A DNA stretch of 64,000 bases from Ancylobacter sonchi (lineage in GTDB: Bacteria; Pseudomonadota; Alphaproteobacteria; Rhizobiales; Xanthobacteraceae): NCBI RefSeq assembly GCF_018390695.1, contig NZ_JAHBGF010000028.1, forward strand, positions 62,001-126,000. Direction: 5' to 3'. This document shows positions 24,830 through 34,496 of this stretch, one piece after another (position 1 is the first letter of the stretch; each line of letters opens with the position of its first letter). Both the position numbers and the translations under genes were made by a program. A model generated the notes under the pieces. That model did no database searches. It was given only the letters and a program-made list of their open reading frames with translations, and was not told where the DNA came from.

Positions 24830-26212
24830 TCAGAAGTAGCTCGCCGCCATTTCCGGCGAGACTTCCAGCGTGTGCGCCATGAATTCCAGCCCGCGCTCCA
24901 GCTGCGCCCGGCTCACCGGCCCGCCGAGGCCGACGCGCACCGCCTCCGGCGGCGGCCCGCCGACGGTGAAGGCGTCGCTCGCCACCACGCCGATGCCGGT
25001 GCTGCGCACATGGGCGGCGAAGGCCGGGCAGCTCCAGCCATTGCGCAGCGGCAACCAGATGTTGAAGCTGAGCGGGTCCGACAGATAGGTGCCCGGCTCG
25101 AAGAAGCGGGCGGCGATCTTCTGCCGTGCCGCCGTCTCCGAGCGGATGAAGCGCAGGATCGTGTCGGCGGTGCCGTCGTCGATCCAGCGCGTCGCCACCG
25201 CCGCCATCAGCGGCGAGGCCATCACCGCCACCGCCCGCATCGCGGCGTTGAACGACCAGCCCGAGCGGGTGTCAGGCACCACCACATAGGCGAGGCGCAG
25301 CCCGGCGCCGATGCATTTGGCCAGCCCGGCGATGTGCCAGCAGATGTCGGGCGCGATGGCCGCCAGCGGCGGCGGCCCATAGGCGGCGATGAAGCCATAG
25401 GCGTCGTCCTCGACGATTGGCAGCCCGTGCCGGCGGGCGATGGCGCAGATCGCCGTGCGCCGCCGCTCCGGCGTGGTGATGGTCATCGGGTTCTGCAGCG
25501 TCGGGTTGAGGTAGAGCGCCTTGGGCCGGTGGCGCAGGATCGCCGCCTCCAGCGCCTCCGGCACGATGCCGTCGGCGTCCATCTCAACGCCGGCGAGGTT
25601 GAGTTCCAGCTGCGCGGTGATCGCCCGGATGCCGGGATAGGTGATCGCCTCGGCTAGCACCGTGTCGCCGGCCTTGGCCAGCAGCGAGAAGATGCCGACC
25701 AGCGCCGGGTGCGCGCCCGGGGTGATGAAGATGCGCTCCTGCGCCGGCACCAGCGCCCGCCGGCCGAGCCAGGCCGAGGCGGCGTCCTTGTCCAGCGGCG
25801 AGCCGCCGAATCCCTGGTAGCGCAGCAGCGGCATGAGATCGCGCGCCACCGCGGCATAGCCGTCCTGCATGCGGGCGATCAGTTCGGGATCGTCCGGCTC
25901 CGGCGGCATGTTCATGGTGAAGTCGGCGGCGCGCAGCCGCTGCGGGGCAGGGGCCATGGGCTGGGAGGCGGGCTTGCGCACGAAGCTGCCGCGCCCGACG
26001 GTGGAATCGATCAGCCCGCGCTTGCCGGCTTCGACATAGCCGCGCGCCACGGTGGTGAAGTCGACGCCGAGCCGCGCGGCCAGCCGGCGCTGCGGCGGCA
26101 GCTGGTCGCCGGGCACCAGCAGGCCGGCGGCGATGTCGGCCGCGATCGCCTCGGCGATGGCGAGATAGCGCGGCCCCTCGCGACCCTCGATCTGCGGCAC
26201 CCAGTCCTTCAT
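24830..26212 (-). CDS. MocR/PdxR-type GntR regulator with aminotransferase domain
   Basis: Protein of 460 residues. The N-terminal GntR winged helix (YLAIAEAIAADIAAGLLVPGDQLPPQRRLAARLGVDFTTVARGYVEAGKRGLIDSTVGRGSFV) is fused to a fold-type-I aminotransferase domain with NPTLQNPMT, VEDDAYGF and GLAKCIGAGLRLAY, the lysine being the PLP residue. MocR proteins sense amino compounds through PLP and control nearby amino-acid, polyamine or vitamin B6 genes. The ATG at 26212 (MKDWVPQIEG) is preferred over a longer open frame. The target is unclear; the convergent polyamine genes are possible. Confidence 0.88.
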   Translation of the reverse strand: MKDWVPQIEGREGPRYLAIAEAIAADIAAGLLVPGDQLPPQRRLAARLGVDFTTVARGYVEAGKRGLIDSTVGRGSFVRKPASQPMAPAPQRLRAADFTMNMPPEPDDPELIARMQDGYAAVARDLMPLLRYQGFGGSPLDKDAASAWLGRRALVPAQERIFITPGAHPALVGIFSLLAKAGDTVLAEAITYPGIRAITAQLELNLAGVEMDADGIVPEALEAAILRHRPKALYLNPTLQNPMTITTPERRRTAICAIARRHGLPIVEDDAYGFIAAYGPPPLAAIAPDICWHIAGLAKCIGAGLRLAYVVVPDTRSGWSFNAAMRAVAVMASPLMAAVATRWIDDGTADTILRFIRSETAARQKIAARFFEPGTYLSDPLSFNIWLPLRNGWSCPAFAAHVRSTGIGVVASDAFTVGGPPPEAVRVGLGGPVSRAQLERGLEFMAHTLEVSPEMAASYF

Positions 26213-26735
26213 CGGCACGCTCCTGACGCGTTCAGCTTTCTCGCTCCCCGCCCGAACGCGACTGCTGCCGAGTTCGGATCCGGCAAGGTCGAGGCCGGAA
26301 ACATCGGGCTTCGACGGAGAGGTGGCCCGCACAGCGGGCCGGTGAGGGGAGGCACCATCGGGAGGCCAAGAAGGCCCCTCATCCCAGCCCGCTCCCTAAT
26401 GGGGAGAGGGAGAAAAGGGCGCCTCTCACCTGCCCCGTGAGCCCACCACCGGCTCCCTCCTTAGCCGGCTGTCCGGCCCCTGTCACCGGATAAAGCGCTC
26501 CTCGCCAGCGATTGACCGCACATTGTTGCAATTCGAAATGCGGGAAAGTTTGGCAGATGGCGCGCTTGGCATCACGGAGAATGGCCGCTGATTGACGGGA
26601 TGTCTAGCCATATTGAATGCATAAATTGTATCAAAATACCATATTTGATGGGATTTTTGATCGTTACATTGTTGGCATGGTCGTTGCTCTCTTGTTGCAC
26701 GCCCCTCCGGGCAAACCCGCAACAAGGAGTGACCC
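26213..26735. other. Intergenic region (523 bp) with a hairpin-rich repeat-like block
   Basis: No convincing gene. Its first part (about 26320-26470) is a mosaic of inverted repeats: GGCCCGC/GCGGGCC (26324-26330 and 26334-26340), TGAGGGG with CCCCTCA, and CTCCC/GGGAG around a 'CCCCTCATCCCAGC...GGGGAGAGGGAG' pattern. It resembles the RIME/REP-type intergenic elements of Rhizobiales. The second part (26520-26730) is AT-rich and holds an imperfect dyad GCAATTCGAAATGC and a sigma-54 promoter for the nitrilase cluster. Confidence 0.5.
26672..26688 (+). promoter_or_regulatory. Sigma-54 (-24/-12) promoter of the nitrilase cluster
   Basis: TTGGCATGGTCGTTGCT matches the RpoN consensus YTGGCACG-N4-TTGCW at all but one of the conserved positions. 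The invariant GG is at 26674-26675 and GC at 26686-26687 with the required spacing. Transcription would start near 26699, about 37 nt before the first ATG, leaving room for the AAGGAG ribosome site. Sigma-54 control fits the nitrogen-starvation names of this gene family. Confidence 0.75.
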
Positions 26736-27218
26736 ATGCCCGCCGTGACCCATCCGCCCCACAAGACCGGCGACTTCTTCGTGGACTATGAGGAGAAGCT
26801 GTTCGAGGACGTCAAAGCCGCCCCCGGCGAAAAGGCGCTCGTCACCTTCCACACCGTCGCCTTCGAGGGCTCGATCGGCCTCGTCAACCTGCTCCAGGCC
26901 ACCCGGCTGCAGCGCAAGGGCTACGAGACCTCGGTGCTGCTCTACGGCCCGGGCGTCACCCTCGGCGTGCAGCGCGGCTTCCCGAAGATCGGCGACGAAG
27001 CCTTCCCCGGCCACCAGAACTTCAACAACCAGATCAAGAAGTTCATCTCCGAGGGCGGCAAGGTCTATGCCTGCCGCTTCGCGCTTCAGGCGCTGTACGG
27101 CCATGGCGAGCCCTCGCTGATCGAGGGGATCATCCCGATCAGCCCGCTCGATGTGCTCGACCTGGTGCTGATCCACAAGCGCGACAACGCCTTCATCCTC
27201 GACACCTGGACCTTGTGA
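26736..27218 (+). CDS. MSMEG_0572/Sll0783 family nitrogen-starvation response protein
   Basis: Protein of 160 residues, first gene of the nitrilase (Nit1C-type) cluster. It reads [75 protein letters not shown], characteristic of the family. DsrE-like alpha/beta features are suggested by the [11 protein letters not shown] and [10 protein letters not shown] strands. In cyanobacteria the homologue Sll0783 is strongly induced by nitrogen starvation. No catalytic role is established. The start is preceded by AAGGAG and a sigma-54 promoter. Confidence 0.85.
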
Positions 27219-27280: not shown

Positions 27281-28336
27281 ATGACAGAGAACCAGACCGT
27301 TCGCGCCGCCGCGGTGCAGATCGCCCCCGATCTCACCTCGCGCGCGGGCACCATGGACAAGGTGCTGAACGCCGTCACTGAAGCGGCGGGCAGGGGGGCG
27401 AAGCTCGTGGTGTTCCCGGAGACCTTCGTCCCCTGGTACCCGTATTTTTCCTTCGTGCTGCCGCCGGTGCTGTCGGGACGCGAGCATTTGCGGCTCTACG
27501 AGCAGGCCGTCACCGTGCCCGGCCCCGAGACCGAGGCGATGGCCGCCATTGCCCGGCGCCATGCCATGGTGATCGTGCTCGGCATCAACGAGCGCGATCA
27601 CGGCTCGCTCTACAACACCCAGCTGGTCTTCGACGCCGACGGCTCGCTGAAGCTCAAGCGCCGCAAGCTCACCCCGACCTTCCACGAGCGGATGATCTGG
27701 GGGCAGGGCGACGGCGCCGGCTTAAAAGTGGTCGACACCGCCGTCGGCCGGGTCGGCGCGCTGGCCTGCTGGGAGCACTACAACCCGCTCGCCCGCTACG
27801 CGCTGATGGCGCAGCACGAGGAGATCCACGTCGCGCAGTTCCCCGGCTCGCTGGTGGGGCCGATCTTCGCCGAGCAGATCGAGGTGACGATCCGCCACCA
27901 CGCGCTGGAGAGCGGCTGCTTCGTGGTCAATTCCACCGGCTGGCTCACCGAGGAGCAGATCGCCTCGGTGACGCCGGAGCCGGGCCTGCAGAACGCCCTG
28001 CGCGGCGGCTGCATGACCGCCATCGTCGGGCCGGAGGGACGGCATGTGGTGCCGCCGCTCACCTCGGGCGAGGGGCTGCTGGTCGCCGATCTCGACCTCG
28101 GCCTGATCACCAAGCGCAAGCGGATGATGGATTCGGTCGGCCACTACGCCCGGCCGGAGCTCATGCATCTGGTGCTCGATACCCGCCCCGCTCAGCCGCT
28201 GCATGTCGATGCCCCCCTCAGCCATCCAACCGAAGCCGGGAGCCACTTCGATGGAGAACGCGACGAATCCGACGCAGGATCTGCCGACCGAGCTGTTGAT
28301 CAGCGAGCTGCAATCCTTCGGCGCGCGGCTGTCTGA
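27281..28336 (+). CDS. Nitrilase, Sll0784/Nit1 subfamily
   Basis: Carbon-nitrogen hydrolase of 351 residues with an intact catalytic triad: Glu47 ([12 protein letters not shown]), Lys129 ([19 protein letters not shown]) and Cys163 ([14 protein letters not shown]). Nitrilases of this subfamily convert nitriles, and possibly cyanide-derived nitriles, to acids and ammonia. The ATG at 27281 follows GAGGAG, 62 bp after the previous gene. The C-terminal tail ([17 protein letters not shown]...) is polar and overlaps the start of the radical SAM gene by 86 bp. It acts in the cytoplasm; the natural substrate is unknown. Confidence 0.92.
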
Positions 28337-29381
28337 CCCCAGGGTCGGCGCCGAGAGCCGGCGCGGCGGCGCCGGTCCCTCCGACCACAAGGCGCTGACG
28401 CTGGACGGCATGACGGTGATGGTGCCCGTGCACACCGCGCCGGCCTTCGACAGTCCCTATGTCGTCGAGAAGCCGGACGCGGCCGGCCGCAGCCAGATCA
28501 TCCGCGACGGCCGCAAGGTCGGCGAGGTGAGCTTCCCGGCGCGGCCGCGCTTCTACGACCTGACCACCGCCGACGGCATCCCCTACAACAAGATCGCCGT
28601 GCTGCACGGGCGCGACGTGCTGGCCACCACGGTGCTGCAGACCTGCATCCGCTACCAGAGCCGCATCAAGACCTGTCAGTTCTGCTCCATCGGCCAGTCG
28701 CTGGCGGCCGGGCGCACCATCGCCCACAAGACGCCGGAGCAACTCGCCGAGGTGGCGAAGGCGGCGGTCGAGCTCGACGGCGTCAAGCACATGGTGATGA
28801 CCACCGGCACGCCGAAGGGCGACGATCGCGGCTGCGCCATCCTCGCCGACAGCGTCCGGGCGGTGAAGGCGGCGGTGGACCTGCCGGTGCAGGTGCAGAG
28901 CGAGCCGCCGGAGGATTTCGGCTGGTTCCAGCGGCTGAAGGAGGCCGGGGCCGACGCGCTCGGCATGCATCTGGAGGCCGTCACCCCGGAGGTGCGCCAG
29001 CGCATCATGCCGGGCAAGGCGCAGGTGTCGGTCGAAAAATACATGGAGGCGTTCGCCGCCTCGGTGCCGGTGTTCGGGCGGGGGCAGGTCTCGACCTACA
29101 TCCTCGCCGGGCTCGGCGACACGCCGGAGGCGATCCTTTCCCTCTCGGAAAAGCTGATCGCGCTCGGCGTCTACCCCTTCGTGGTGCCGTTCGTGCCGAT
29201 CTCCGGCACGCCGTTGGAGAGCCACCCGACGCCGTCCTCCGCCTTTATGAACTCCATCCTCGCGCCGCTGTCGCGGATGCTGGTCGATGGCGGGCTGAAG
29301 GCCACCGACATCAAGGCCGGTTGCGGACGCTGCGGCGCCTGCTCGGCGCTGGCCACCTATGAGCGGAAGCTGGCGCCATGA
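28251..29381 (+). CDS. Radical SAM protein, MSMEG_0568 family
   Basis: Protein of 376 residues. The [4Fe-4S] motif is C132-x9-C142-x2-C145 ([19 protein letters not shown]), not the usual Cx3Cx2C. The following TIM-barrel features include [63 protein letters not shown] and [17 protein letters not shown]. The C-terminus carries another cysteine triplet C358GRC361GAC364, a possible second cluster or a substrate-binding site. It resembles biotin-synthase-like radical SAM enzymes of the nitrilase cluster. The ATG at 28251 lies inside the nitrilase gene, and the stop overlaps the next gene (ATGA). Confidence 0.9.
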
Positions 29382-29947
29382 TCATCGAAGAGGACCTCAT
29401 CGATGGTGGAACCACCCTTCCGCAGCCCTTCGTCTCCAGCGCCTATCAGGTGAAGTTCGCCGCCTCGCGCTGGGAGCGCGAGGGGTCCTACGCCCTGCGC
29501 CGCGCGGTGTTCTGCGCCGAGCAGGGGCTGTTCGCCGGCGACGACCGCGACGGCATCGACGACTACGCCATTCCCATCGTCGCGCTGGCGATGATGGGCG
29601 TGGTCGCCGACCGGGTGGTCGGCACGGTGCGCATCCATGAAGAGAGCCCCGGCACCTGGTGGGGGTCGCGGCTCGCGGTCGATGCCGACTACCGGCGCAT
29701 CGGCGCGCTCGGCGCGACGCTGATCAAGCTCGCCGTCTCCTCGGCCCACGCCATGGGCTGCCGGACCTTCCTCGCCCATGTGCAGGAACAGAACGCGCTG
29801 CTGTTCCGCCGGCTGCACTGGCGCATCGTCGAGGAGGTGGAGCTGCACGGCCGCAGGCATTTCCGCATGCAGGCGGACCTCGCGCACTACCCGCCCTGCT
29901 TCTCGCCCGAATGGGGCTTCACCGCCCTGCCGCGAAAGGTGGCCTGA
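29378..29947 (+). CDS. GNAT-family protein of the nitrilase cluster (MSMEG_0567/Sll0786 N-terminal type)
   Basis: Protein of 189 residues. FAASRWEREGSYALRRAVFCAEQGLFAGDDRDGIDDYAIPIVAL starts the acyltransferase fold, and SRLAVDADYRRIGALGATLIKLAVSSAHAMGCRTFLAHVQEQNALLFRRLHW is the CoA-binding core. In several organisms this domain is fused to the AIR-synthase-like domain encoded by the next gene; here they are separate, one nucleotide apart. The acyl acceptor is unknown. The start overlaps the radical SAM stop (ATGA). Confidence 0.85.
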   Translation: MIIEEDLIDGGTTLPQPFVSSAYQVKFAASRWEREGSYALRRAVFCAEQGLFAGDDRDGIDDYAIPIVALAMMGVVADRVVGTVRIHEESPGTWWGSRLAVDADYRRIGALGATLIKLAVSSAHAMGCRTFLAHVQEQNALLFRRLHWRIVEEVELHGRRHFRMQADLAHYPPCFSPEWGFTALPRKVA

Positions 29948-29948
29948 G

Positions 29949-30935
29949 ATGAATGCTCCCGCCTTCGCCGCCCTCGTCGACGAATTGCGCGCCAATGCCG
30001 GCCTCAAGGCCAAGGCGGAGATCGGCGAGGTGGCGGCGCGGCTCGGACTGTCCGGCGCTCAGGTGCCGGTCGGCGACGACTGCGCCGCCATCCCGGACGG
30101 CGACGGGCACCTGCTGTTCGCCATCGAGGGCTTCATCAACGGCTTCGTCGCCGCCGATCCGTGGTTCGCCGGCTGGTGCGGGGTGATGGTGAACCTGTCC
30201 GACATCGCCGCCATGGGCGGGCGCCCGCTCGCCGTGGTCGACGCGGTGTGGGCGAAGGACGCTGACAGCGCGGGCGCGGTGCTCGACGGCATGCGCGCGG
30301 CCTCGCAGGCCTATGGCGTGCCGATCGTCGGCGGCCATTCCAATCTGCACACGGCTCAGGAGCAGCTGGCGGTGGCGGTGCTGGGGCGGGCCGGCACGCG
30401 GCTGCTGACCAGCTTCGACGCCCGCCCCGGCGAGGTGCTGATCGCCGCCATCGACCAGCGCGGCGACTATCGCGCGCCGTTCGACAACTGGCAGGCCGCC
30501 TTGGCCGCCCCGCCCGAGCGGCTGCGTGCTGATCTCGCGCTGCTGCCGGGGATCGCCGAGAAGGGGTTGTCCCGTGCCGCCAAGGACATCAGTCAGGCCG
30601 GCCTCGTCGGCACGGCGGTGATGCTGGCGGAATGCTCGGAGGTCGGCATCGCTATCGACCTCGACGCCATCCCGCTGCCGGAAGGCGTCGCGCTGGCGCG
30701 CTGGCTGCGCAGCTTCCCGAGCTTCGGCTTCCTGATTACGGCGGCGACGGCGGACGTGCCGACGATCCTCTCTCTGTTCGCCGCGCGGGAGATCTCGGCC
30801 GCCGCCATCGGCACGGTCTCCGCCGGTCATGCGGTCAGCGTGTCGAGCGGCCCGCACCGCGCGGTCATCCGCGACTATGCCGCCGACCGCCTGATGGGCC
30901 TCGGCGCGACCCTCGACGTACGGGAGATGGCGTGA
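29949..30935 (+). CDS. AIR synthase-related protein, Sll0787 family
   Basis: Protein of 328 residues related to PurM/ThiL/SelD-type ATP-binding enzymes: VGDDCAAIPDGDGHLLFAIEGFI (aspartate/glycine ATP-metal loop), MVNLSDIAAMGGRPLAVVDAVW, VPIVGGHSNLHTAQEQLAVAVLG and AAKDISQAGLVGTAVMLAECS. Relatives phosphorylate or dehydrate substrates with ATP, so it may activate an intermediate in the cluster's pathway. It starts 1 nt after the GNAT gene and its stop overlaps the glycosyltransferase start (TGATG). Confidence 0.9.
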   Translation: MNAPAFAALVDELRANAGLKAKAEIGEVAARLGLSGAQVPVGDDCAAIPDGDGHLLFAIEGFINGFVAADPWFAGWCGVMVNLSDIAAMGGRPLAVVDAVWAKDADSAGAVLDGMRAASQAYGVPIVGGHSNLHTAQEQLAVAVLGRAGTRLLTSFDARPGEVLIAAIDQRGDYRAPFDNWQAALAAPPERLRADLALLPGIAEKGLSRAAKDISQAGLVGTAVMLAECSEVGIAIDLDAIPLPEGVALARWLRSFPSFGFLITAATADVPTILSLFAAREISAAAIGTVSAGHAVSVSSGPHRAVIRDYAADRLMGLGATLDVREMA

Positions 30936-32095
30936 TGGCCTCTCTGCGCATCGCGGTACTCACCCACTCGACCAATCCGCGCGGCGGCGTGGTGCATGCC
31001 CTGTCGCTCTGCGAGGCGCTCGCTGCGCTCGGTCACCGGCCGGTGCTGCACGCGCCGGACGCGAAGGGCGCCAGCTTCTTCCGCGCGCCGGCCTGCGAGG
31101 CGGTGGCGTTCAAGGTCGGCCCGGCGCCGGCCGGCATGGCCGAGATGGTCGAGCAGCGCATCTCCGATTACGTCGACCATTTCGAGCGCGCCGGCACCGA
31201 CGGATTCGACCTGTTCCACGCCCATGACGGCATTTCCGGCAACGCGCTGGCGAAGCTGAAGCAGCGGGGCATCATCCCCGGCTTCGCGCGCACCGTGCAT
31301 CACATCGACAGCTTCGGCGATCCGCGCCTTGCCGCCCTGCAGGAACGGGCGATCCGGGCGGCGGATGGCTGGTTCACTGTGAGCCGCCTCTGGCAGGCGC
31401 ATCTTGCCGAGGCCTACGGCATCGCCGCGGCGCTCACCGGCAACGGCGTCGATGCCGGCCGCTTCCAGCCGCAGCCCGATGGGTCCGAGGCCGAATTGCG
31501 CGCCCGGCTCGGCCTCGGCGCCGGCCCCATCCTGCTCGCGGTCGGCGGCATCGAGGCGCGCAAGAACACCGTGCGCATCCTCGACGCCTTCCTGCAATTG
31601 CGCGCCTTGCATCCGAAGGCCGAGCTGGTCGTCGCCGGCGGCGCCTCGCTGCTCGACCACGGCGCCTACCAGGCCGAGTTCCGCGCCATGCTGGCGCTGC
31701 ACGGCGCGCAGGGCGTCCATGTCACGGGCCCGCTCGCCGATGCCGACATGGCGCGGCTCTACCGGCTCGCCGACGCGCTCGTCTTCGCCTCGGTGAAGGA
31801 GGGCTTCGGCCTGTGCGTGCTGGAGGCGATGGCCTCCGGCCTGCCGGTGGTGGTCTCCCGCATCGCGCCCTTCACCGAATATCTCGCCGACGACGAGGCG
31901 ATCTGGTGCGACCCGCAGCGTCCCGCCTCGATCGCCGACGCCATGGCGCTCGCCTTGCGGCCGGGCACGCGCGCGACCTTCGCCCCGCGCGGGCTGGCGG
32001 TGGCCGTCCGCCACGACTGGGCGCGCGTCGCCCGCGCCCACCTGCCCCTCTACACACGCCTCGCGGAGACCGCCCGGAGATCGCTACATGCCTGA
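30935..32095 (+). CDS. Glycosyltransferase, MSMEG_0565 family (GT4)
   Basis: GT-B glycosyltransferase of 386 residues. The N-terminal Rossmann domain (RIAVLTHSTNPRGGVVHALSLCEALAALGHRPVLHAP) is followed by LFHAHDGISGNAL and the C-terminal donor domain with VGGIEARKNTVRILDAFLQL and EGFGLCVLEAMASGLPVVVSRIAPF (E-x7-E motif). Its presence implies the cluster makes a glycosylated product. No signal or membrane segment is present. It overlaps both neighbours. Confidence 0.9.
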   Translation: MASLRIAVLTHSTNPRGGVVHALSLCEALAALGHRPVLHAPDAKGASFFRAPACEAVAFKVGPAPAGMAEMVEQRISDYVDHFERAGTDGFDLFHAHDGISGNALAKLKQRGIIPGFARTVHHIDSFGDPRLAALQERAIRAADGWFTVSRLWQAHLAEAYGIAAALTGNGVDAGRFQPQPDGSEAELRARLGLGAGPILLAVGGIEARKNTVRILDAFLQLRALHPKAELVVAGGASLLDHGAYQAEFRAMLALHGAQGVHVTGPLADADMARLYRLADALVFASVKEGFGLCVLEAMASGLPVVVSRIAPFTEYLADDEAIWCDPQRPASIADAMALALRPGTRATFAPRGLAVAVRHDWARVARAHLPLYTRLAETARRSLHA

Positions 32096-32393
32096 GATGC
32101 GCTTCACCATCGCCTGGCCGGACGGCGCGAGCGAAGACTGCTACTCGCCCTCGCTGGTCATCCGCGACCATCTCGCCGAGGGGGCGGTCTATCCGCTCGC
32201 CGATTTCATGGCCCGCGCCCGCACCGCGCTCACCATCGCCTCCGACCGGGTGGCGGCCAAATACGGCCATCCCTGCTCGCTGGCGCTCGGCCAGCTCGAC
32301 CGGCTCGAACGCCGGGCCGCCGGTTTCAAGGACCAGCCGCAGGCCGAAGTCGCCTGCCTCCGCTTCCAGCTCCCGCAAGGATTTGCCCGATGA
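32088..32393 (+). CDS. MSMEG_0570 family nitrogen-starvation response protein
   Basis: Protein of 101 residues: MPEMRFTIAWPDGASEDCYSPSLVIRDHLAEGAVYPLADFMARARTALTIASDRVAAKYGHPCSLALGQL. The RFTIAWPDG start and CYSPSLVIRDHL block mark the small family found beside the nitrilase-cluster flavin oxidoreductase. No enzymatic motif is evident; it may be an accessory or carrier-like subunit. Its start overlaps the glycosyltransferase by 8 nt and its stop overlaps the next ATG by 4 nt. Confidence 0.85.
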   Translation: MPEMRFTIAWPDGASEDCYSPSLVIRDHLAEGAVYPLADFMARARTALTIASDRVAAKYGHPCSLALGQLDRLERRAAGFKDQPQAEVACLRFQLPQGFAR

Positions 32394-33652
32394 ACCCCAG
32401 CACCGCGCATTACCGCGCCATCGTCGTCGGTGGCGGCCAGGCCGGCCTTTCCGCCTCCTACCACCTCACTGAAGCCGGCATCGACCATCTCGTGATCGAG
32501 AAGAAGACCGCCATGCACAAATGGCGCGACGAGCGCTGGGATGCCTTCTGCCTGGTGACGCCGAACTGGCAGTGCCAGCTGCCCGGCCATCCCTATGATG
32601 GCGACGATCCCAACGGCTTCATGGTGAAGGACCAGATCCTCGGCTATCTCGACCGCTTCCGGGCCAAGGTGAAGCCGCCGATCCTTGAGCACACCGCCGT
32701 GTCGGCGGTGGAGCGGCACGGCAGCGGCTTCCGCGTCGAGACCTCGGCGGGGAGCTTCACCGCCGACGCGGTTATTCTCGCCACCAGCCTCTATGGCACG
32801 CCGTCGATCCCCCGCGCCGCCGAGCGGCTGCCGGACGACATCGTGCAGATGCACACCGTCGATTACCGCAACGCCGACGCCCTGCCGCCGGGTGCGGTGA
32901 TGGTGGTTGGCTCGGGCCAGTCCGGAGCGCAGATCGCCGAGGACCTGCACCTTTCCGGCCGCAAGGTGCACCTCGCCACCGGCAACGCGCCGCGCTGCGC
33001 CCGCTTCTATCGTGGCCGCGACGTGGTGGACTGGCTGTGGGACATCGGCCAGTACGCCATCACCATCGCCGATGACGGCATGGGCAAGAAGCGGCACGAC
33101 ACCAACCACTACCTCACCGGCCGCGACGGCGGGCGCGACATCGACCTGCGCCGCTTCGCCCTCGACGGCATGGCGCTCTATGGCCGGGTGCAGGGTGTCT
33201 CCGGCGGCCGGATGCGGTTTGCCGCCGACCTCAAGGCCAATCTCGACGCCGCCGACAAGGTCTATAACGGCATCAACGCGCTGATCGACCGCCACATCGC
33301 CGACAAGGCTATCGAGGCGCCGCCGGCCTCGGTCTATGTCCCGCTGTGGGAGCCGGCAGAGGAGCCGGCCGAGCTCGACCTGAAGCAGGCCGGCATCACC
33401 AGCGTCATCTGGGCCACCGGCTTCCGGCCGGACTGGTCCTTTGTCGGCCTGCCGATCTTCGACGGCACCGGCTATCCGGTGCAGCGGCGCGGCGTCACCC
33501 ATGTGCCCGGCCTCTATGTGCTCGGCCTGCCCTGGCTGTGGACCTGGGGCTCGGGGCGCTTCCTCGGCGTCGCCGCCGATGCCGAGCATGTGGTGGAGCA
33601 TCTCGTGGGCGCGGTGTCGGCGCCGCGCCAGCTGCTCGCGCAGGCGGGGTGA
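32390..33652 (+). CDS. FAD-dependent oxidoreductase, MSMEG_0569 family
   Basis: Flavin monooxygenase-like protein of 420 residues. The FAD-binding GGGQAG is at residues 14-19 (AIVVGGGQAGLSASYHL), and the second nucleotide-binding motif GSGQSG is at 174-179 (VMVVGSGQSGAQIAEDL), as in YUCCA/TrkA-type monooxygenases using NADPH. VIWATGFRPDWSFV is the conserved ATG motif near the C-terminus. It could hydroxylate an amine or nitrile-related intermediate; the substrate is not established. Confidence 0.9.
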   Translation: MNPSTAHYRAIVVGGGQAGLSASYHLTEAGIDHLVIEKKTAMHKWRDERWDAFCLVTPNWQCQLPGHPYDGDDPNGFMVKDQILGYLDRFRAKVKPPILEHTAVSAVERHGSGFRVETSAGSFTADAVILATSLYGTPSIPRAAERLPDDIVQMHTVDYRNADALPPGAVMVVGSGQSGAQIAEDLHLSGRKVHLATGNAPRCARFYRGRDVVDWLWDIGQYAITIADDGMGKKRHDTNHYLTGRDGGRDIDLRRFALDGMALYGRVQGVSGGRMRFAADLKANLDAADKVYNGINALIDRHIADKAIEAPPASVYVPLWEPAEEPAELDLKQAGITSVIWATGFRPDWSFVGLPIFDGTGYPVQRRGVTHVPGLYVLGLPWLWTWGSGRFLGVAADAEHVVEHLVGAVSAPRQLLAQAG

Positions 33653-33656
33653 CGCC

Positions 33657-34496
33657 ATGAGCTTCGATCTTCCCGCGCATCGCCTCGTCACCGAGCCGGC
33701 CCTCGAGACCGTGGTGCGGCTGGGCATGCCGCATCTGGCGCCGCAGGGCCTGTCCGAGAGCTGGCTGCTCAAGCGGCTCGGCGACCTGCACTGGCAGATG
33801 CTCGCCGCCCGGCTCGGCCGCCCGGCCTCGGCGGTCGAGGATCGCGAGGGCAACCGCGTCTATGCCGCGTTCCGCCAGCTGCGGCTGGAGGCGGCCCGCC
33901 TCGACCGCGCAGGGGAGGACGACGCGCTGGTCATCCGCTCGCGCCTGTGGCGGCTGACACGCACCCAGCTGATCAGCCGCCACGCGCTGGAGATCGGCGG
34001 CGAAGCACTGGGACGGGTGACGCTGGTCTCGGCCTTCATCCGCCGCGAGGGGGGCTCCAACCGGAGGGTCTGCCGGGTCGAGGTGCCCGGCCTCGCCGAA
34101 CTGCCGCTGTGGGGGCCTCCGCAGCCGGACGCGCCGTCGCTGGGCGAGGGGGCGGAGCCGTCGGCGGAGTTCTCCTTCACGCCGTGCCCGCCGGAGGATT
34201 TCAACGGCGCCGGCTTCCTGTATTTCCCCGCTTACGTCGCCATCGTCGAGCGCGCGCTCCACGCCGCCGGATGGATGCCGCCGGCTGGCCTGCCGGTGCG
34301 CGAGCGCACGGTCCGCTTCCACGCCAATCTCGATCCCGGCGACCGCGTCGAGGTCCGCACGCATCTGCTGCCCGCGGCATCGGGCGAACTGCATGTCGCC
34401 TCGCTGCTGTGCCGGGGCTCGGATGGTGCGCGGATGGCGGAGATCGTCACCCGCCGTCATGGCGCCGTCGCTCCAGCACCGCTACAAGCCATCTAG
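33657..34496 (+). CDS. LnmK-like / Pnap_2097 family biosynthetic protein
   Basis: Protein of 279 residues that I match to the LnmK N-terminal-like, Pnap_2097-type family (double hot-dog fold). Key stretches are MPHLAPQGLSESWLLKRLGDLHWQMLAARLG, FTPCPPEDFNGAGFLYFPAYVAIVERAL and VRERTVRFHANLDPGDRVEVRTHLLP. LnmK is an acyltransferase/decarboxylase that loads an acyl group on a carrier protein in leinamycin biosynthesis. In this position it suggests an acyl-CoA or acyl-carrier step in the cluster. It starts 4 bp after the flavin enzyme gene. Confidence 0.75.
   Translation: MSFDLPAHRLVTEPALETVVRLGMPHLAPQGLSESWLLKRLGDLHWQMLAARLGRPASAVEDREGNRVYAAFRQLRLEAARLDRAGEDDALVIRSRLWRLTRTQLISRHALEIGGEALGRVTLVSAFIRREGGSNRRVCRVEVPGLAELPLWGPPQPDAPSLGEGAEPSAEFSFTPCPPEDFNGAGFLYFPAYVAIVERALHAAGWMPPAGLPVRERTVRFHANLDPGDRVEVRTHLLPAASGELHVASLLCRGSDGARMAEIVTRRHGAVAPAPLQAI

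Follow-up and report, generated by a model that had tools for sequence, protein, structure and literature searches.

A sigma-54 promoter and tandem MocR-type boxes upstream of the Nit1C cluster of Ancylobacter sonchi: a candidate two-input control region

The Nit1C cluster and its described relatives

The Nit1C nitrilase cluster was described by Podar et al. (Podar 2005), and in Pseudomonas it has been tied experimentally to cyanide assimilation (PMC11049912). In P. pseudoalcaligenes CECT5344, nitA, which encodes a sigma-54-dependent regulator, lies divergent from nitB (PMC11049912, PMC8567248). For the region in front of Nit1C, Podar 2005 reports no conserved binding sites. The paper already notes a nit cluster on pLVPK, and we saw NitB relatives in 515 plasmid records, 374 of them from Klebsiella. 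A second described system that bears on the present locus is that of the MocR-type regulators, whose dimers are arranged head-to-tail in a way that fits direct repeats (PMC5320631). A literature search, made largely among papers open without subscription, returned no report linking a MocR regulator to sigma-54 or to a Nit1C promoter.

Here we consider the Nit1C locus of Ancylobacter sonchi within a window of 64,000 nt, by which we mean the whole stretch of DNA analysed. Its nearest named relative among the matches listed is Ancylobacter sp. Lp-2, with a NitB that is 99% identical. The genes lie on the forward strand and were assigned by NCBIfam models: nitB (MSMEG_0572/Sll0783 family, TIGR04044) at 26736..27218, nitC (Nit6803-family nitrilase, TIGR04048) at 27281..28336, nitD (radical SAM, TIGR04043) at 28251..29381, nitE (GNAT, TIGR04045) at 29378..29947, nitF (AIR-synthase-like, TIGR04049) at 29949..30935, an MSMEG_0565-family glycosyltransferase gene (TIGR04047) at 30935..32095, the gene of an MSMEG_0570-family small protein (TIGR04042) at 32088..32393, and nitH (flavin-dependent oxidoreductase, TIGR04046) at 32390..33652. 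The downstream neighbour (33657..34496) encodes a Pnap_2097/LnmK-type protein (TIGR04099). All seven members of the Nit1C order (nitB, nitC, radical SAM, GNAT, AIRS, small ORF, flavoprotein) score above their NCBIfam cut-offs and follow one another in that order, with the glycosyltransferase inserted before the small ORF. The end of nitC (28336) and the start used for nitD (28251) overlap in different frames, and an earlier in-frame nitD ATG lies at 28203.

For comparison, we assembled 166 nitB loci: the best 80 of 581 confirmed in named genomes, all 56 matches in 391 genomes of the window's family (30 loci, then 26 more), 24 matches above cut-off in 390 genomes of the order of one further genome (G404), and 6 plasmid records. 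Removing duplicates and near-duplicates (L096, L098, L020 and L189) left 162, among them the window's own locus (L095). By linked regulator, 129 loci are MocR-linked (a linked MocR gene of at least 200 bits), seven are linked to a sigma-54 activator gene, and 26 have neither. These 26 comprise 15 cyanobacteria, seven Methylobacter/Methylomonas, one locus of the window's family (L260) and three others, of which L056 is clipped at a contig end. The sampled loci are related to each other, and 76 of them also trained the box model described below; the 26 family loci added later and the overlap control are in line with the earlier numbers.

A conserved -24/-12 element before nitB

The first-pass annotation had placed a sigma-54 promoter with correct -24/-12 spacing in front of nitB, and position, conservation and lineage controls all bear this out. 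The element, TTGGCATGGTCGTTGCT (26672..26688, forward strand), is kept in relatives across many Proteobacteria. Its GG (26674-26675) and GC (26686-26687) lie 10 bp apart inside YTGGCACGNNNNTTGCW, and 47 bp separate its end from the nitB ATG at 26736. Its 16-base core occurs once in the window, and on both window strands it has the highest sigma-54 score, 17.2 bits against 14.9 for the runner-up, with a weight matrix shaped by hand on the sigma-54 consensus, none of the loci having served as training data. A loose pattern allowing two mismatches does no better than chance across the whole window (11 found, 13.9 expected), so the case for the promoter rests on conservation. In the genome (5.8 Mb in 47 contigs), the strict form TTGGCAYRNNNNTTGCW has five matches and the reversed pattern none, and RpoN is encoded, with one Sigma54_DBD match of 235.9 bits.

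Alignment with relatives, which the first-pass annotation had proposed, showed the -24/-12 element kept upstream of nitB in most MocR-linked loci. Of the 129 MocR-linked loci, 123 have a sigma-54 site of at least 11 bits no more than 170 bp from nitB; at the same score it is found in all seven activator-linked loci and in one of the 26 with neither gene. When near-identical upstream sequences (at least 85% identity) are merged, these figures become 107/113, 6/6 and 1/19 clusters. At 11 bits, shuffled upstream sequences gave 14 sites in 520 (2.7%) and the opposite strand one in 104. The spacing of GG and GC is kept even where the spacer and the box sequence vary. None of the 15 cyanobacterial nit loci has the site, and an RpoN domain search of a Synechococcus control genome returned no match. 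Taken as the sigma-54 promoter of nitB, the element at 26672-26688 is an almost certain assignment.

The exceptions are few. Among the 56 loci of the window's family, 55 have the MocR gene and the boxes and 52 have the sigma-54 site; L260 (58% NitB) lacks all three. The sole locus with neither regulator gene that has the site is from Agaribacter (L066). Agaribacter marinus has two nit clusters, one (L151) with MocR, boxes and promoter, the other (L066) without a linked MocR gene. Six loci with MocR and boxes lack the sigma-54 site: three in the window's genus group (L107, L110, L121) and three of Acetobacteraceae type (L050, L082, L217). Because of these six, the MocR part and sigma-54 are separable. 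The three in the genus group may represent a promoter swap.

From sigma-54 geometry, transcription would be expected to start near 26699. An inverted repeat (26691..26726, forward strand), with arms CTTGTTGC (26691-26698) and GCAACAAG (26719-26726), extends from the -8 to -1 region to the region of the Shine-Dalgarno sequence AAGGAG (26724-26729). If transcription does start near 26699, the 5' arm of this repeat would be untranscribed. Of 96 loci, 33 have inverted-repeat arms of at least 6, where 8.6 would be expected, and the RNA folds tested were not unusual (z of -1.6 or weaker). In two loci (L016 and L097), the arms read CCTGATC/GATCAGG.

Tandem boxes and a divergent MocR-type gene

The first-pass annotation missed the ATTGAWYGCAT boxes, along with the divergent MocR gene. 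These boxes are tandem direct repeats 11-12 bp apart that extend as far as the promoter and overlap part of it. The repeat was first spotted by reading upstream sequences side by side; the box model is seeded and thresholded, has the consensus ATTGAWYG[CG]AT, and was trained on 76 loci. It finds 4.3 matches per sequence, against 1.07 in shuffles. Forward matches outnumber reverse ones by 257 to 68, the commonest spacings are 11, 12 and 23 bp, and 185 of the 257 forward boxes begin 11-70 bp upstream of the promoter TGG.

All boxes of the window's upstream region described here lie on the forward strand. The best is TATTGAATGCATAA (26611..26624, 17.8 bits), and GATTGACGGGATGT (26590..26603) scores 10.9 bits. 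A proximal array of three boxes at 12-bp spacing (26643..26680) is marked both by model score and by the alignment of the window's family, in which this stretch is kept. Its members lie at 26643-26656 (12.5 bits), 26655-26668 (8.6 bits) and 26667-26680 (8.9 bits), the third overlapping the -24 element. A distal pair (26510..26530), formed by GATTGACCGCACAT (26510-26523, 12.2 bits) and then ATTGTTGCA, which is under the model threshold, is a strongly kept block in seven aligned sequences of the family.

Across loci, the MocR gene, the repeats and the sigma-54 site co-occur. Two or more boxes are found in 128 of 129 MocR-linked loci (112 of 113 clusters once near-identical upstream sequences are merged), in one of seven activator-linked loci and in two of the 26 with neither, against 3.9% of 590 genic control windows of 350 bp. 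Outside the training set, boxes are present in 17 of 17 MocR-linked and 0 of 5 activator-linked loci of the order of G404, a count without L189 and L205, which duplicate L047 and L061, and in 25 of 25 further MocR-linked loci of the window's family, four of which are nearly identical to L124, a locus used in training. In the seven loci with a sigma-54 activator gene in place of MocR, the promoter is always kept and the boxes are gone in six; the seventh, from Acinetobacter (L216), has three box-like matches in an AT-rich region. Proteobacterial Nit1C thus occurs in two forms, one with MocR, boxes and a sigma-54 site, the other with a linked activator and a sigma-54 site without boxes.

Since many loci of the window's family read TGGCACATTGATTGCA at the core promoter, with a box inside it, one might suppose that the -24/-12 element is a by-product of an array whose units end in TTGGCA or TTGCA, with transcription left to sigma-70. 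The coincidence of core promoter and repeat units in many loci would suit this, as would the six MocR loci that have box matches and no sigma-54 site. It is nonetheless very improbable: the site persists without boxes in six of seven activator-linked loci, its GG/GC spacing holds across differing spacers and boxes, and the element is absent from all 15 cyanobacterial loci.

In 36 genomes, a strict tandem pattern has 17 matches, against one for the reversed pattern, and 13 of the 17 fall at 12 nit clusters (L151 counted). The box regulon therefore looks nearly confined to nit, as seen with a pattern that found the nit cluster in only 12 of the 36 genomes and missed the nit promoter of the other 24. 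The remaining four matches (L133, L135, L136 and L147, identical with L148, L149, L150 and L152) lie away from nit, and that of L149 is upstream of an ABC-transporter-like gene. With two mismatches allowed, the window's own genome has six tandem matches and four for the reversed pattern, which apart from nit is chance level. One such two-mismatch match, also at chance level by the control, precedes an AcoR/DhaR-like activator gene by about 0.2 kb (L130/L006, C30:434147).

The candidate binder of the boxes is encoded on the reverse strand at 24830..26212, divergent from nitB. The lead to it came from four annotated plasmid records in which a gene for a "PLP-dependent aminotransferase family protein" is divergent from nitB. 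The product (460 aa, starting MKDWVPQ at 26212) has the composition of a MocR/GabR-type regulator, with aminotransferase matches within 87-449 and GntR-family DNA-binding matches within about 10-94, and among proteins of solved structure its relatives over the C-terminal part are aminotransferases, while those at the N-terminus are GntR-type DNA-binding domains. The closest NCBIfam model is EhuR, whose cut-off of 480 bits the window protein does not reach (421.6 bits); four other nit-linked MocRs score 344.6-461.5 bits. Of 58 full-length nit-linked MocRs, all 58 keep Lys299 (L015 protein numbering), by alignment the presumed PLP-binding lysine, and a C-terminal arginine whose role is likewise presumed by alignment. 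In a tree, a MocR paralog of the same genome (L219, 44% identity) is not cleanly apart from the nit-linked MocRs.

Eight mocR genes are not divergent neighbours of nitB. In four such loci (L064, L081, L069 and L094), mocR is 2.5-8 kb distant and boxes still stand at nitB. At least two boxes precede the non-neighbouring mocR in L064, L081 and L083, one match precedes it in L217, and none does in L069, L094, L050 and L082. In the two Massilia loci (L064 and L081), mocR and nitB are separated by about 2.5 kb that has boxes on either side; the intervening genes may be a further MocR target, and the boxes that precede mocR there may serve these genes instead.

This distribution makes MocR a very probable binder of the ATTGAWYGCAT boxes. 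The boxes could instead belong to an unlinked factor, possibly the missing activator, while MocR just travels with the operon. The loci with a distant mocR, two of them without boxes before that gene, would fit such a factor, and inverted box copies also occur. We consider this improbable, because the boxes are missing in six of seven loci with an activator in place of MocR and in 24 of the 26 with neither, and because direct repeats fit MocR dimers (PMC5320631).

As to what MocR would do once bound, the boxes abut or overlap the core promoter, and it would most likely keep polymerase off. In 96 loci, a unit of at least 8 bits overlaps -12 in 27, -24 in 14 and at least one of the two in 35; with the promoter letters fixed and the rest shuffled, 2.6, 0.7 and 3.2 would be expected. 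Because 61 of the 96 loci have no strong box over the core promoter, occlusion is not general. We are only slightly inclined to regard MocR as mainly a repressor that acts by occlusion. The main rival to repression is that MocR is a co-activator, its bound boxes bending or staging the promoter so that an activator in trans can reach the sigma-54 polymerase. Most boxes indeed lie upstream of -24 rather than over it, and MocR-type regulators such as GabR and TauR can activate. Rhizopine-bound MocR activates PmocB (PMC9249168), and at the sigma-54-dependent rpoS of Borrelia, BosR is a second activator (PMC3037356). Against co-activation stand the 35 of 96 loci with a box over -24 or -12 and the suggestion that another MocR, beside the cio cluster of P. 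pseudoalcaligenes, is a repressor, which was drawn from proteomics called unpublished and from mutant growth (PMC8567248). On balance, co-activation seems unlikely, if less so than the other alternatives weighed here.

An activator in trans and a two-input reading

The MocR protein has no AAA+ domain, so the sigma-54 activator must act in trans, and because no activator gene was seen beside the window's cluster, it would be supplied from elsewhere. The genome has 14 activator-domain matches, nine of them strong (at least 183.9 bits), including NtrC (L001) and NtrX; none of these genes adjoins the nit cluster. GAFTGA is intact in NtrC and was not seen in NtrX. Near the first 110 clusters, 30 of which are covered by only 1.5 kb on each side, a search at E 1e-15 found an activator gene in just two loci, L045 and L064, in the latter 7-9 kb upstream. 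A looser threshold brought the activator-linked loci to seven in all, with none among the 26 added later: L196, L197 and L209-L211 from the order of G404, Acinetobacter L216 and Polyangiaceae L045. By eye, five of them (L211, L216, L196, L197 and L210) have an upstream palindrome like TACGAARYTTCGTA or ACGTAAATGCGTAG, a possible NitA site.

The first-pass annotation had linked the cluster to RpoN/NtrC-type nitrogen control and offered an imperfect dyad as an enhancer-binding site. The dyad, GCAATTCGAAATGC (26528..26541), lies about 131-144 bp upstream of the promoter TGG. Its inner bases vary in six relatives, where only the outer TTGC and TGCG are kept, and the TTGC closes a conserved pair of repeats, ATTGACCGCACATTGTTGC; as an enhancer-binding site, the dyad is thus not supported. 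The link to nitrogen control fares better in part: the promoter is there, RpoN is encoded and many non-alphaproteobacterial relatives have NtrC-type sites, but the window has no significant site and alphaproteobacteria have few. The best match in the window to the enteric NtrC consensus has 5 mismatches in 12, which is not significant, and the best to a model built from relatives' P-II promoters scores 2.3 bits, where shuffles have a median of 3.4 and a 95th percentile of 9.8. A candidate of NtrC geometry chosen by eye, TGCGGGAAAGTTTGGCA (TGC-N11-GCA, 26539..26555), scores 0.46 bits and is not significant.

In relatives, the NtrC consensus with at most two mismatches occurs in 26 of 57 non-alphaproteobacterial loci, against 1.9 expected, and in 2 of 41 alphaproteobacterial loci, against 0.8 expected; among the 57 are a few MAGs that are unplaced or bear alpha names, as well as Verrucomicrobia-named ones, and 25 later family loci stand outside this count. 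The sites of the non-alphaproteobacterial relatives span -129 to -217 and cluster near -140 and -180. There is an excess of the exact GCAC-N7-GTGC dyad (10 of 80, against 0.73) and none of adjacent spacings. The P-II model, which represents alphaproteobacterial NtrC sites, fits its own training loci and shows a weak upward shift in the 41 alphaproteobacterial nit promoters (mean 3.9 against 0.8, sd 4.1), five of which exceed the shuffle 95th percentile. A Bradyrhizobium-like group of 10 has, by eye, a common 19-bp dyad like TGCMY-N9-RGGCA; no dyad common to the alphaproteobacterial groups was seen by eye. We conclude that NtrC is probably the activator in many non-alphaproteobacterial relatives and regard it as a tentative candidate, at somewhat less than even odds, in A. 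sonchi.

A rival account would see here a plain sigma-54 promoter activated by NtrC, with a weak enhancer for NtrC at the dyad and MocR as an unrelated neighbour. Its sigma-54 site is real, the genome encodes an NtrC with intact GAFTGA, relatives outside the alphaproteobacteria have NtrC-type sites at a similar distance, alphaproteobacterial nit promoters exceed shuffles by a small margin under the relatives' NtrC model, and there is a candidate of suitable geometry at 26539-26555. Yet no NtrC site in the window is significant, the alphaproteobacterial count (2/41) stands against 0.8 expected, the core of the dyad is not conserved, and the tandem boxes and the MocR linkage in 129 loci are left unexplained. 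We give this account little credence.

The reading that we prefer is a promoter with two inputs, a trans activator and gating by MocR. There is a real promoter and a row of repeats very likely bound by MocR; therefore, the cluster seems to need two signals. Built on the promoter, the repeats, the MocR linkage and the NtrC-type sites of relatives at the level of sequence, this reading has in our estimate a probability of roughly 0.7. The nit operon would be read from the sigma-54 promoter at 26672-26688, which sigma-54 RNA polymerase would not open without an enhancer-binding activator. That activator would act in trans and would probably be NtrC in many beta- and gammaproteobacterial relatives; in the window's lineage, it may be a different activator, or NtrC bound at a site that we did not recognise. 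The second input would come from the divergent MocR (24830-26212), acting on boxes that begin near -163 and extend across -24. Most likely, MocR would bar the sigma-54 polymerase until an amino compound linked to nitrile or cyanide metabolism, the presumed effector, enters the PLP pocket of MocR.

We lean towards a broader formulation, that of a lock with two keys: nitrogen limitation, sensed through the trans activator, and a metabolite, sensed through MocR, would act together on a promoter that in many lineages is embedded in its regulator's own operators. Across Proteobacteria, this design would alternate with a one-key design of NitA type that replaces MocR and boxes. The boxes, the promoter and the exchange of regulators offer a direct handle on when Nit1C is made. 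What a MocR regulator senses is often an amino compound from the pathway that it belongs to, and for this reason a PLP-binding regulator could be used to seek the cluster's natural metabolite. If the reading is true, the locus would be a clear instance of a sigma-54 core promoter that has a non-AAA+ regulator built into it.

It is useful to set this arrangement beside known systems. NtrC-activated sigma-54 promoters such as glnAp2 resemble many non-alphaproteobacterial nit promoters, which have TGCAC-N7-GTGCA-type sites near -140 and -180, whereas the window and most alphaproteobacterial loci have no recognisable NtrC site. At Borrelia rpoS, which combines sigma-54, Rrp2 and BosR, a second regulator that binds direct repeats likewise acts beside an NtrC-like one, but BosR is a Fur/PerR homolog and common ancestry is not implied (PMC3037356). 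The MocR-type regulons (GabR, TauR, PdxR and the ectoine regulators) share with the window a GntR domain joined to an aminotransferase fold, direct-repeat operators and a divergent target (PMC5320631). They differ in that the main text of that source does not contain "nitrilase", "nitrile", "radical SAM" or "AIR synthase", and its passage on sigma concerns an ECF factor. Finally, the nit system of P. pseudoalcaligenes CECT5344 has nitBCDEFH, a regulator gene divergent from nitB and sigma-54-type regulation in common with the window (PMC11049912, PMC8567248). There, however, the divergent gene encodes NitA, whereas here it encodes a MocR-type protein without an AAA+ domain, and the window's promoter carries MocR-type tandem boxes.
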